Positions 59,031 through 64,000 of a DNA stretch of 64,000 bases are shown here, piece after piece; within the stretch, counting starts at the first letter, position 1; each line of letters starts with the position of its first letter. The DNA lies in the NCBI GenBank assembly GCA_016223135.1, contig JACRPQ010000004.1, positions 496,001-560,000 on the forward strand, read 5' to 3'. Under the pieces are notes generated by a model. The model saw only the letters and a program-made list of their open reading frames with translations, was not told the DNA's origin and did no database searches. This DNA is from Chloroflexota bacterium. Its GTDB lineage: Bacteria; Chloroflexota; Anaerolineae; Anaerolineales; Villigracilaceae. Both the position numbers and the translations under genes were made by a program.

Positions 59031-59234
59031 CAACAGACTGCCGGGTTCTCCAGGAACTATGGCTTTCTCAAAGTTTGGATGCGAGCCTTCTTTGTACACG
59101 GATTTCGCGGAATGAACGGATTCCTTTCCGTTTTTCACGGAGAATTCCATATCATCCGTGCGATCCGCGTACAAAAATTGCTTCCGTCGAGCGATAATGA
59201 GAAAGTCATACTCCAAGAACCCGGCAGTCTTCTG
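59031..59234. repeat. 204-bp inverted-repeat element at the leader-distal end of the CRISPR array
   Basis: Imperfect inverted ends of about 35 bp: left CAACAGACTGCCGGGTTCT...GGCTTTCTC, right GAGAAAGTC...AGAACCCGGCAGTCTTCTG. The 5-bp duplication TTTAA flanks it (59026-59030, 59235-59239). A second pair of arms (TACACGGATTTCGCGG / CCGTGCGATCCGCGTAC) lies inside. Its right flank is the truncated terminal CRISPR repeat. Confidence 0.8.
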
Positions 59235-61113
59235 TTTAATGCCCTTGCGGGCATTTATTGATTCTGACCTGCAAAAGAAGAAGCAGAAGCCCGCGAGAAA
59301 GCGTGGTCTTAATGCCCTTGCGGGCATTTATTGATTCTGACCTGAACGCGCAAGCGAAAATGACGTTATCACCGTCATTAGTCTTAATGCCCTTGAGGGC
59401 ATTTATTGATTCTGACCTTGACTGGCGATGATATTTACACCTACGCGTTACAGTCTTAATGCCCTTGCGGGCATTTATTGATTCTGACCCAGCACAGAGG
59501 CGCGTTCACGCCCGCCGCTGGTCGGGTCTTAATGCCCTTGCGGGCATTTATTGATTCTGACTGAAAGTTGTCGAATATATCACGCTAATCGCTCTCGGGT
59601 CTTAATGCCCTTGCGGGCATTTATTGATTCTGACCTATATCGGAAGCGATATTTTCGCTAAGTTCCTGACGTAGTCTTAATGCCCTTGCGGGCATTTATT
59701 GATTCTGATACTCAAAAAACATTCGCGATCTCGTGAAAGTTTCAGGGGTCTTAATGCCCTTGCGGGCATTTATTGATTCTGACAAATTTCCTCCGGTATC
59801 TCAATGCTGAGAGCAACGATATGTCTTAATGCCCTTGCGGGCATTTATTGATTCTGACATATGTTGGTGAAATTGACGTTTGGAATGAACAATTAGGGTC
59901 TTAATGCCCTTGCGGGCATTTATTGATTCTGACAATCGAGGGAAGAGACGCGACCTCGGCGTCTGATGATGAGTCTTAATGCCCTTGCGGGCATTTATTG
60001 ATTCTGACTATAACGAAGTCAATTAAAGCCCTCGTGAAAGTTGAGTCTTAATGCCCTTGCGGGCATTTATTGATTCTGACATACTGCATCAACTCCACCT
60101 CGCCCATGTCCGGGTTGGGTCTTAATGCCCTTGCGGGCATTTATTGATTCTGACTCTAAAGAGGAACTATGAAAATTATAATAACGAAACGTCTTAATGC
60201 CCTTGCGGGCATTTATTGATTCTGACGCTCGCAGGCAAACTCATTTTCGCCGTCACTGGATTGGAGTCTTAATGCCCTTGCGGGCATTTATTGATTCTGA
60301 CTGTTTTGAGATGGTGACGGTCAAGATCGCGTGAGTCATGGTCTTAATGCCCTTGCGGGCATTTATTGATTCTGACCTAATTCCCCACATCCGCCCACCA
60401 GCAAAAGTTGGTGGGCGTCTTAATGCCCTTGCGGGCATTTATTGATTCTGACTGTAAGTTGATTATCAATATTGCCAACACAAAGCGCCGTGTCTTAATG
60501 CCCTTGCGGGCATTTATTGATTCTGACACAGAAGTTTGCGTTCCCTCTTGCGTTCGCGGTCGCGGGTCTTAATGCCCTTGCGGGCATTTATTGATTCTGA
60601 CCCAAAATGCAGTCCTGAGTGGATCGTGCTACGTTGTGGTCTTAATGCCCTTGCGGGCATTTATTGATTCTGACCGGAGCTCGCGCGTGACTGTGCAGGC
60701 TTGCCAGTAGTCTTAATGCCCTTGCGGGCATTTATTGATTCTGACTCCATCTTCAAAAGAATAAGTGACAGCACGACGCTTGCGTCTTAATGCCCTTGCG
60801 GGCATTTATTGATTCTGACAATAATGGTAGCACCCAGTACGTGCGCGTCCCGTTTGGGTCTTAATGCCCTTGCGGGCATTTATTGATTCTGACCCTGTTT
60901 GAAGCGCGAATGAAGCGCCGCGAGTTATCGCGTCTTAATGCCCTTGCGGGCATTTATTGATTCTGACGAAATTGAGGCGAGTTCGCGCGGCGTCGTGGGC
61001 GAAGTCTTAATGCCCTTGCGGGCATTTATTGATTCTGACTATCACGCTATGCAACGAGTGCTGGATGAAGGCACTCAGTCTTAATGCCCTTGCGGGCATT
61101 TATTGATTCTGAC
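59233..61113 (-). CRISPR. CRISPR array, 26 repeats and 25 spacers
   Basis: The 36-bp repeat on the plus strand begins GTCTTAATGCCC, has the stem AATGCCC/GGGCATT and ends GATTCTGAC. Repeat starts: 59233 (degenerate), 59306, 59381, 59453, 59526, 59599, 59674, 59748, 59823, 59898, 59973, 60045, 60119, 60191, 60266, 60341, 60417, 60492, 60566, 60639, 60710, 60784, 60858, 60932, 61004, 61078. Spacers are 35-40 bases. Variants are an A in the third repeat loop (CCTTGAGGGC) and a T as last base of the seventh. Minus-strand reading is favoured: the repeat then ends ATTAAGAC, like the usual crRNA handle; the degenerate repeat is at the far end; and cas genes and a promoter lie at the high-coordinate end. 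Confidence 0.97.
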
Positions 61114-61239: not shown

Positions 61240-61297
61240 TGCGTACCCCCCTCCCTAAAAAGGTCAAAACCAGGCGAATCTGGCGGGGGGGTACGCA
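61240..61297. repeat. 12-bp inverted repeat between the cas remnant and the leader
   Basis: TGCGTACCCCCC (61240-61251) and GGGGGGTACGCA (61286-61297) are perfect reverse complements 34 bases apart. The pair directly follows the minus-strand stop at 61306 and may separate cas transcripts from the array. Confidence 0.7.
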
Positions 61298-61305
61298 AAT
61301 ATGCG

Positions 61306-61554
61306 TCAGACAATCATCGTGCTGGGCGGCGGGGTGAGATGCCCCTGTCCAAGCACGCGTAAACGTCCGCGGCAGGCGGCGCACAAGGCATACAAGCGCA
61401 GGCTGTCTTCCTCTTCCTGTAAGATTTTTCGGACTTTGTTGAGCAGCTTCTCCAATTCCGCCTCGTTTAAGTACGCCTCGAAGACCGAATCCTGCACGCG
61501 GCGGTTGCGAATGCGAATTTTGGTCTGTTGCTCCACAAGATATAAGGCTGGCAT
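61306..61554 (-). pseudogene. Deletion fusion: Cas1 N-terminus joined in frame to Cas2 C-terminus
   Basis: 82 codons, still open, with GGGAGG before the ATG. Residues 1-19 (MPALYLVEQQTKIRIRNRR) read like the first strands of a Cas1 protein. From about residue 20 the sequence is the second half of Cas2: VQDSVFEAYLNEAELEKLL, then EEEDSLRLYALCAACRGRLRVLG. The Cas2 first strand with its catalytic aspartate, the whole Cas1 catalytic domain and the Cas1 stop are missing. A single in-frame deletion between adjacent cas1 and cas2 genes explains this. The product could not integrate spacers. Alternative reading: a diverged short Cas2, less likely because the N-terminal YDIxxDxxR part is absent. Confidence 0.75.
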
Positions 61555-61589
61555 ACAAACCTCCCTGCAGCGTTGTTAAGGTTCAGATT

Positions 61590-61650
61590 GAAGATTGTAG
61601 ATTGTAGATTGAAGATTGTGGATTGAAGATTGTGGATTGAAGGTTTAGCG
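61590..61650. repeat. GATTGAAGATTGTGG simple-repeat tract
   Basis: Irregular tandem units of 10-15 bases (GATTGAAGATTGTAG, GATTGAAGATTGTGG) between the cas remnant and the four-helix gene. Similar tracts lie at 62035-62100, 62945-63093 and 63480-63520. Confidence 0.8.
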
Positions 61651-62010
61651 TTTGGTGTGCAAGTTACGAGTAACGGTTTTTCGGGAGGAGACGAAGATGG
61701 CAGTCAATTCATCGGCTTCTTTGCGAAGGTCGCTGAGGCGTTCTTTGGGCAGCAAGCCGCTCTCTTCGATGACTTCCAGCCAAAACGCACTTTCGTCCAC
61801 TTCTTCGATGACGATTTGCAATTTGGCAGAAAACTCGGCTTGCGAGCGCGCCCGGCAAGCGGCGCGATAGTTTGCTCCCACCGAAGTGGCTGAACGCAGC
61901 GCCTGCTTGCCCATCACCTCGCCAATGTAATTCTTTGGCAAATCCTGGCACATTCGAATCGTGCGCAACGCAAATGTCTTCGTCCTCTCCTTCAACTCCT
62001 CTGCATCCAT
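61645..62010 (-). CDS. Four-helix-bundle (S23/IVP-like) protein inside the cas operon
   Basis: 121 residues. LKERTKTFALRTIRMCQDLP, GKQALRSATSVGANYRAACRARSQAEF and KLQIVIEEVDESAFWLEVIEESGLL are typical of the family first found in 23S rRNA intervening sequences. These proteins form pentameric four-helix bundles with a basic cavity; their role is unknown. AAGGAG precedes the ATG. It lies between cas6 and the cas1-cas2 remnant, in the same direction. Confidence 0.88.
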   Translation of the reverse strand: MDAEELKERTKTFALRTIRMCQDLPKNYIGEVMGKQALRSATSVGANYRAACRARSQAEFSAKLQIVIEEVDESAFWLEVIEESGLLPKERLSDLRKEADELTAIFVSSRKTVTRNLHTKR

Positions 62011-62080
62011 CTTCTTCTCCTTCCTATCTACTCAATCATCAATCTGCAATCATCAATCTGCAATCATCAATCTGCAATCA

Positions 62081-62944
62081 TCAATCTGCAATCATCAATC
62101 TCACCTGCCCCAACCCTTGCGTCGTCCCCGCGCCAATGCCGGAAAAGAACGCAAACGCCGCCAGCGCGTGAATCTGCCCCATCCAAAAGCGGTCAAAATT
62201 GGTCGTCGTGAACGTAATCTGACCCACCGCGCCAATGCGCAGTCCGCCATCCTTGAGCGGCACGGAGCGGCTTTCCAGGTCGAAGCGGCTCACCGCCAAA
62301 CACTCCTCCGCATAGCGGCGCAATTCGGGCATCAACGCCAGCGGCGCAAACGCATTCCACTTCTCGATGAGACTATTGAAGACCAGCGAGGCAGTCGGCA
62401 AAGGATGAGAAAGACCGCCGCTTTTGAAGACAACCGGACTGGTGAACTGGAACGACACCCGGCGCGGAATCTCCACCCCCGGCAGGAATCGGCTTCCCAG
62501 CGCGGCGTACGCATCCTGCCCCGCCCAAGCCTGCGTGCCTGAACAATCAGCCGCTGCCACGCTGAAAGGGACGTGGTCCAACTCCAGCGTACTGCCCGCT
62601 GCGGTCTGGCAAAACGCCAGCAAGAGCGCGGTCAGATCCGCCGAGAGCGAAGTCCAGCGTAAGGTATAGGTCTCGCCGGGCAAAGGCGCGCCCGTCTGAC
62701 GGTCAAACTTCCCCATCAGCGTCGAGACGGTGTAGGGGCGGAGGGAATTGTGGATTGCTGATTGCTGATTGGAGATTGTAGATTGGGGCGAAGCGTGCAG
62801 CCGTTCCGCCAGCGCCGGGTCCGCTTGCCGGACGACATCGAGCAGCGCCGCCTGCGAAGCGCGTCCCCACCAGCGGGGGAAGTCTGTCCGTTGGGCGGGA
62901 ATTTCCAACGGTCGAAGCGTGAGAACGAGAGAAAGAAGGTCCAT
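62081..62944 (-). CDS. cas6: Cas6 pre-crRNA endoribonuclease
   Basis: 287 residues. It shows a RAMP double-ferredoxin plan: RPYTVSTLMGKF, YTLRWTSLSADLTALLL, VSFQFTSPVVFKSGG and the C-terminal glycine-rich loop GAGTTQGLGQVRLM. Cas6 cuts the repeat hairpin to give crRNAs with an 8-nt handle. A short-repeat tract (62745-62786) is translated in frame as STISNQQSAIHN near residue 55, and the stop lies at the edge of another tract. The catalytic histidine cannot be assigned by eye. It is separated from csx15 by 150 bases of simple repeats. Confidence 0.87.
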   Translation of the reverse strand: MDLLSLVLTLRPLEIPAQRTDFPRWWGRASQAALLDVVRQADPALAERLHASPQSTISNQQSAIHNSLRPYTVSTLMGKFDRQTGAPLPGETYTLRWTSLSADLTALLLAFCQTAAGSTLELDHVPFSVAAADCSGTQAWAGQDAYAALGSRFLPGVEIPRRVSFQFTSPVVFKSGGLSHPLPTASLVFNSLIEKWNAFAPLALMPELRRYAEECLAVSRFDLESRSVPLKDGGLRIGAVGQITFTTTNFDRFWMGQIHALAAFAFFSGIGAGTTQGLGQVRLMIAD

Positions 62945-63093
62945 GATTTAGATTTGCGATTGACGATTGACGATTTGACGATTTGTGATTGCAGATTTGC
63001 GATCGCAGATTTACGATTTCAGATTTGCGATAGCAGATTTACGATTTACGATTTCAGATTTGCGATTTGCGATTGGAAATCCAAAATCCAAAA
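62945..63093. repeat. GATTTGCGATT / GATTTACGATT simple-repeat tract
   Basis: About 13 irregular units of 9-12 bases between csx15 and cas6, ending GGAAATCCAAAATCCAAAAT. No gene. Confidence 0.85.
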
Positions 63094-63094
63094 T

Positions 63095-63478
63095 CTAAAA
63101 TCGAAACTGCCTCGCCTCGTCGCGCACGGCTTGCAGGTTAATCACCTCCGCCACCTCAAAGCGCGGCGGAATAGCGCCCTCCACCGGCTTGAGCCGCAAA
63201 ATGGGGGGGAAGTAGCCCATACGTCCGTGCAATTCAGCCAGCACGAGGGCAGCAATGTAATTGTAGGACGGCAGGTTGACGATGATGGGCGCGGTCTGCC
63301 ACTCTTGGGGCGTGAAGGTCACGGCTTTGAGAATCTCGCGCAATTGGAGCAAAAAGGGCTGCTCGTGGTCGAAGTGAATCGGCAGGGCGATGACCTGCTC
63401 CAGCGGGTTTTTGGTGAGGAATTCAATTTGTTCCCGTTGTTCAGGGGTGAGGGGATGGGAGAAGTTCAATAATATCAT
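63095..63478 (-). CDS. csx15: CRISPR-associated protein Csx15
   Basis: 127 residues. LLNFSHPLTPEQREQIEFL, then VIALPIHFDHEQPF, WQTAPIIVNLPSYNYIAALVLAELHGRMGYFPPILRL and FEVAEVINLQAVRDEAR, match Csx15 as I remember it: a small accessory protein of type III loci, reported to bind cyclic tetra-adenylate and damp the signal. The ATG overlaps the upstream stop as ATGA, so it is coupled to the nuclease gene that would answer that signal. Confidence 0.8.
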   Translation of the reverse strand: MILLNFSHPLTPEQREQIEFLTKNPLEQVIALPIHFDHEQPFLLQLREILKAVTFTPQEWQTAPIIVNLPSYNYIAALVLAELHGRMGYFPPILRLKPVEGAIPPRFEVAEVINLQAVRDEARQFRF

Positions 63479-64000
63479 TTGCGATTTCCGATTTGAGGAT
63501 TTTGGATTTGCGATTTTGGATTTGCGCCGAGGGTTTCATCGAGGGCGGCTCGCAAGCGGGCTTGACTGGCGTCATCCAGCCGCCATCTTCCCGGCGCGGC
63601 TTCGCGGATTTGCACCAGCACAACGTGAATGCCGTAGGCTTTTGCCAAGTCTTGCAATTGTTTGCCAGGCAGGGCGGCTACCACCCAAATGCGCCCGGTG
63701 TAGGTCCCCAGGTATTCGCGCCCGGTGATAGTGGTCAGTTGGTCAAGTCCGTCGCGTTTTCGTTTATGTTTGCTCAAACCGCTCTTGGCTTCAATGATGG
63801 CAATCTGATTGCCGCGCTGAACGAGGAAATCAATTTCAAAGGCAGGATATTGCAGGTTATGACGCACTTCGTCCGCTTGTTTGCCAAGAAACATCAACAA
63901 GGCGGTTTCCTGATGATTGGTTAAGGGCGTGGAAGGGACTGGCGGCAAGCCGTGCGCCTGCAAGTAGTCTTCCGGCGAAATCAAACGCGGCAGCACGTCA
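63475..64000 (-). CDS. PD-(D/E)XK nuclease end of a Can1/Can2/Card1-like protein (cut by window edge)
   Basis: The frame is open to the end of the window; a GTG at 63996 exists but codons continue beyond it, so the N-terminus, expected to be a CARF domain, lies outside. Visible: a helical lead (TNHQETALLMFLGKQADEVRHNL), then FEIDFLVQRGNQIAIIEAKSGLSKH, with D and E-x-K of the PD-(D/E)XK site, and TGRIWVVAALPGKQLQDLAKAYGIHVVLV. This is the layout of DUF1887/Can-type nucleases activated by cyclic oligoadenylate. The last 15 residues (NPKSQIQNPQIGNRK) are translated simple repeat. Confidence 0.65.
   Translation of the reverse strand, partial: DVLPRLISPEDYLQAHGLPPVPSTPLTNHQETALLMFLGKQADEVRHNLQYPAFEIDFLVQRGNQIAIIEAKSGLSKHKRKRDGLDQLTTITGREYLGTYTGRIWVVAALPGKQLQDLAKAYGIHVVLVQIREAAPGRWRLDDASQARLRAALDETLGANPKSQIQNPQIGNRK

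Follow-up and report, generated by a model that had tools for sequence, protein, structure and literature searches.

The 82-codon frame beside the CRISPR array of the window (the whole analysed stretch of 64,000 nucleotides) is very probably a cas1-cas2 deletion fusion, a reading to which we give a probability of about 0.93. It would have arisen when one deletion, some 1.2 kb long, took place at a 10-bp word common to both genes. Spacer uptake was probably lost in this event, and the interference genes are kept. The parent genes are known from related species and not from the own species before the deletion.

The remnant and its parent genes

The remnant is on the minus strand at 61306..61554. 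Its ATG is at 61554-61552, its stop codon ends at 61306, and it encodes 82 amino acids. The original prediction was a frame made of a Cas1 start and the C-terminal part of Cas2, and both profiles indeed match this one ORF. Residues 18-63 correspond to the Pfam family PF09827 (Cas2, profile positions 27-72 of 74, E 6.3e-12), and TIGR01573 of NCBIfam also gives the Cas2 identity. Residues 1-21 searched alone had no match in Pfam or NCBIfam. The Cas1 half was therefore tested with profiles from relatives. We built Cas1 and Cas2 profiles from the same six genomes with intact pairs. The custom Cas1 profile matched residues 1-22 (positions 1-22 of 336, E 1.5e-6), and the custom Cas2 profile matched residues 17-82 of the same ORF (positions 30-95 of 95, E 4.5e-30). 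As predicted, a good ribosome-binding site is likely present: GGGAGG, read from the sequence at 61560..61565 (minus strand), lies 5 nt upstream of the ATG.

Relatives were sought in 101 genomes around the window. The genus-mate G008 keeps full cas1 and cas2 side by side in the translated stretches, and the remnant has two separate matches there. One is Cas2 (C20:2738-2935, 82% over remnant residues 17-82). The other is the start of full cas1 (C20:4119-4184, 95% to remnant residues 1-22). The cas1-derived start comprises codons 1-21 (61492..61554, minus strand), and its protein is identical to the first 21 residues of G008 Cas1. The cas2-derived end runs from cas2 codon 32 in G008 numbering and includes the stop (61306..61500, minus strand); residues 19-82 are 84% identical to G008 Cas2. 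Likewise, G030 has an intact cas1 and cas2, with separate matches to the remnant. So, the comparison with sister genomes shows both parents of the fusion.

A sister genome with a full-length Cas2 beginning with LYLVEQQTKIRIRNRR had been named as the finding that would count against the fusion. We found the opposite. LYLVEQQTKIRIRNRR opens the full-length Cas1 in G008 and G030, and their Cas2 proteins start with MSDRTFYLLTYD and MPERLFYLLTYD, respectively. A natural gene with a Cas1-like start peptide is ruled out, because the full Cas1 of both genomes carries that start.

Junction, fold and age of the remnant

At the junction site, G008 cas1 reads AACCGCCGCGTGCAGGTGGAG and G008 cas2 reads GGCGAGCGCGTGCAGGATTCG. 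The window reads AACCGCCGCGTGCAGGATTCG across the junction. The sister genes have in common the 10-bp repeat CGCGTGCAGG (61491..61500 in the window, minus strand), the only exact match of at least 10 bp between G008 cas1 and cas2. This agrees with the proposal of a short homology at Arg-Val codons, which here extends to Arg-Val-Gln. The word starts on a codon boundary (frame 0) in both G008 genes. The remnant is in frame because the repeat used stands in the same frame in both. About 1,201 bp (G008 coordinates) are missing from the window.

One deletion between adjacent cas1 and cas2, as first suggested, gives the remnant, and the parents are seen in the sister loci. In a complete type III-A locus, this single ~1.2-kb deletion would have taken cas1 beyond its first 21 codons, the intergenic space, and the first 31 cas2 codons. 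Recombination between the two copies of CGCGTGCAGG, by slippage or by the joining of ends at this short homology, could account for it.

A junction at a repeated word might also arise if the assembler had wrongly joined a complete cas1 and cas2 present in the genome. However, the common word is 10 bp only, and the overlaps normally used by assemblers are longer. No cas1 piece was found elsewhere in the genome, and a remnant of the same kind with a different junction is present in G041. An assembly error is thus highly improbable.

We compared the substitutions in both parts of the remnant. Between the window and G008, there are 14.5 synonymous and 10.5 amino-acid changes in the Cas2 part (dS 0.415, dN 0.075). 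Polarised with G030, these are 5 synonymous and 2 amino-acid changes on the window branch, and 6 and 4 on the sister branch, with 8 unassigned. The Cas1 part presents 4 synonymous changes and no amino-acid change. The Cas2 part looks still constrained, which fits a recent deletion and also a remnant under selection. This is not the pattern expected of a relic after long drift, and the deletion is therefore probably recent.

The predicted fold of the remnant is poor. Its AlphaFold2 mean pLDDT is 62.6, compared with 92.8 for the intact G008 Cas2 with the same 17 sequences as alignment; the remnant value is partly lowered because none of these sequences resembles the Cas1-derived start. Cas2 has lost its first strand and first helix, and Cas1 is gone past its first 22 profile positions. 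A Cas1 integrase has a domain with a catalytic C-terminal part, and the remnant retains 22 of 336 positions. Similarly, Cas2 has a complete ferredoxin-like fold with first strand and helix, and here the PF09827 match starts at position 27 of 74. Given the poor fold and the missing parts, a working integrase or Cas2 hub is very unlikely. A functional mini-Cas2 is likewise not supported by the predicted fold. Translation is possible, as the remnant retains its ribosome-binding site. The remnant would then be a relic without integrase function, probably recent, that may be translated.

Interference module, arrays and loss of spacer uptake

The original prediction held that cas6, csx15, and a nuclease remain at the locus. 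Their profile matches agree, and the nuclease is of the CARF-PDDEXK kind. All are on the minus strand. The cas6 gene is at 62081..62944 (PF10040 above cut-off; TIGR01877 with 50.9 bits, under its cut-off of 58.65), and csx15 is at 63095..63478 (NCBIfam). Csx15 is described as a ring nuclease in a 2026 report (PMC13148439). The nuclease gene (Card1/Can2-like) is cut by the window end at 63475..64000. The whole gene, at L002:6475-7374, was identified with profiles beyond the window. Past the window end, the same strand carries the rest of this gene, Csm6 (CARF-HEPN), csm5, csm4, csm3, csm2, cas10 with HD and palm domains, and a CARF-HTH gene. The set that defines type III-A, cas10/csm1 with csm2-csm5, is complete, with TIGR02578, TIGR01870, TIGR02582, TIGR01903, and TIGR01899 all above their cut-offs. 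The array and its processing enzyme Cas6 are present too.

Between cas6 and the remnant lies a gene for a four-helix bundle protein of the 23S rRNA IVP family (61645..62010, minus strand; Pfam, NCBIfam). Relatives are also found at the corresponding loci: in G008 the gene stands between cas6 and cas1, in G030 between csx15 and cas6. GATT-rich short tandem repeats, with units of 7-8 or 14 bp, lie between the cas genes at 61586-61655, 62019-62102, and 62937-63091. Similar repeats are in frame inside cas1 of G008 (L066:4017-4291) and G030 (L067:1492-1565), at about codon 30-50.

The CRISPR array beside the remnant (59233..61113, minus strand) consists of 26 repeats, of which 23 are identical, and the 25 spacers counted in the prediction. 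Its leader is probably on the remnant side, as judged from the shared leader and from a degenerate repeat at the opposite end. Since array, leader, and interference genes are retained, the locus should still be able to use its stored spacers.

The genome also has an orphan array far from cas genes, with 25 identical repeats (G000:C12:259638-261437; L104:8613-10436). Visual inspection of the listed ORFs around it (120 aa or longer, L104:5000-14000) revealed no recognisable cas gene. Its repeat is that of the G008 array beside cas2, two bases off the main-array repeat of the window. Among the 25 spacers of the main array and the 24 of the orphan array, there was no 12-base match to the cas1-cas2 stretches of either G008 or G030. 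The same 49 spacers gave no 18-base match in the part of their own genome, outside the arrays, that was compared. One spacer pair between the two arrays has a common 14-mer. No spacer is common to these arrays and the G008 array in L066, one of two in that genome. A comparison of the spacers with phage records yielded a single weak match (34 bases, 91%, E 0.01), present in two Caulobacter phage CcrBL9 records and taken as chance.

The claim that uptake in cis is impossible is supported, and the genome-wide search for another cas1 extends it beyond cis. No second Cas1 was detected in the window's genome (98.4% complete, 19 contigs), with no PF01867 match at E <= 1. Cas1 was found by this search in 10 of 14 control genomes. 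In a further search, it was present in six of eight genomes; the two without it are the window's genome (G000) and G041. The lack of cas1 in a genome is one mark of an adaptation-deficient CRISPR-Cas locus, and G000 shows it at 98.4% completeness. Spacer uptake in trans via the Cas1 of another system is known (PMC8092290). Here, Cas1 supplied in trans was rejected, as no other Cas1 was detected and this route has no visible source. So, adaptation seems lost for the whole cell, and the cell can probably no longer add new spacers. At this completeness, in 19 contigs, a cas1 in the missing part is conceivable.

The leader contains a 56-bp inverted repeat just past the remnant stop (61241..61296), found by pattern search and locus comparison. 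Another precedes the orphan array (G000:C12:259430-259485). The pattern GCGYACCCC-N15-45-GGGGTRCGC occurs at 11 places in seven of eight genomes, one or two in each and none in G030. A reversed control pattern gave 0 in all eight. All 11 places precede a CRISPR array; in G038, the stretch ends so early that it shows no more of the array than an incomplete repeat. With a looser pattern, the palindrome is present in 15 of 16 loci, spanning 55-57 bp with a variable centre. This set includes two repeat rows (L040 = G499, L038 = G500) and is without G039 (a diverged copy), G089, and G539 (the stretch ends too early). The looser pattern does not match in G086, yet a diverged copy is readable there. 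The arms covary, with GCGCAC/GTGCGC in G041, G499, and L035 and GCGTAC/GTACGC elsewhere; they are uneven in G029, G030, and L036. A terminator tied to cas2 is unlikely, since the palindrome also precedes the orphan array, where inspection of the listed ORFs of 120 aa or longer showed no recognisable cas gene. It is possibly a leader recognition or regulatory site, judging from sequence comparison, and it offers a testable candidate for the former.

A second remnant and comparison with known systems

G041, from another genus of the same family, presents a 49-codon in-frame cas1-cas2 remnant. It consists of the Cas1 start to about codon 25 (compared with G499) and the last 24 Cas2 positions. The two remnants are alike: each joins a cas1 start to a cas2 end in frame, lies in the interval between cas6 and the array, and belongs to a genome with no Cas1 detected. 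Unlike the window's, the G041 remnant has more cas1, less cas2, and another junction, and a search of G041 for a Cas10 relative and a RAMP found neither. The system seems further decayed than that of the window, or its effector has diverged beyond the reach of these searches. The G041 locus (L070, G041:C126) keeps cas6, csx15, a CARF-type gene (Cas_APE2256), the array, and the leader palindrome.

The same gene order and the similar left breakpoint might suggest that both genomes inherited one ancestral event. The csx15 tree, which leaves G000, G008, G030, G041, and G539 in one open group, is compatible with this. However, G041 has cas1 codons missing in G000, and G000 has cas2 codons missing in G041. 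The cas6 tree separates G041 from a group that joins G000 with G008 and G030, both of which have intact genes (100/100; G000 with G008, 88/88). From the junctions and this tree, one ancestral fusion is extremely unlikely. Given the cas6 grouping, the two events were most likely independent.

Selection could have kept the remnant, either for its small protein product or because a stretch ahead of the leader is translated. In favour of this are two independent remnants, both in frame and both retaining cas1 codons 1-21 or more. The ratio of synonymous to amino-acid changes in the Cas1 part is 4/0 between the window and G008 and 13/0 between G041 and G499, and the Cas2 part shows no relaxation. 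Nevertheless, the frame and place of the window's remnant follow from one common 10-bp word, and most counted changes may be older than the deletions. If frames were random, both cases would be in frame with a chance of one in nine, and the predicted fold is poor. We consider this explanation improbable. Equally doubtful is a broader form, in which in-frame cas1-cas2 remnants recur in these III-A loci, kept since translation up to the leader, or the peptide, aids the array or the interference complex after uptake is lost.

We surveyed Cas1 starts of this type (E <= 1e-6) in sets of 396, 152, 400, and 147 genomes that partly overlap; the survey is blind to fusions without a cas1 start or in more distant Cas1 types. 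Such a start was found in 31 genomes: in 29 the frame is 329 aa or longer, and in two, G000 and G041, it is short. Weaker matches, some in short frames, were taken as noise and left out of this count (for example G775, 43 aa, E 0.007; G700, 141 aa, E 0.015; G395, G392, and G382). The second independent case suggests that uptake was lost more than once in this group.

The window offers a clean example from nature of a type III-A system that lost uptake and has been frozen since; the deletion is traced to a 10-bp word, and a genus-mate with intact genes is available for comparison. With pairs of remnant and intact loci, one can ask for how long a CRISPR memory remains of use when it is no longer updated.

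The intact csx15-bearing III-A loci of Anaerolineales (G008, G030) have the same interference genes as the window, and a related repeat and leader palindrome. In contrast, their cas1 and cas2 are complete, and the four-helix gene is placed elsewhere in G030. Type III systems without adaptation genes have been reviewed (PMC8616872). III-A loci without cas1 and cas2 are described in the M. tuberculosis complex, in Beijing RD207 and others (PMC5310062). As in the window, the adaptation genes of a III-A locus were lost there by deletion. However, that report describes these genes as completely deleted, with further cas genes or the array hit, whereas the window has an in-frame remnant and keeps the array and the interference genes. 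An in-frame cas1-cas2 remnant is not reported in the titles or abstract openings among the matches listed. The loss of cas1-cas2 from type III-A loci is already known; the present case is a further example of it, with a well-resolved junction and an independent parallel.
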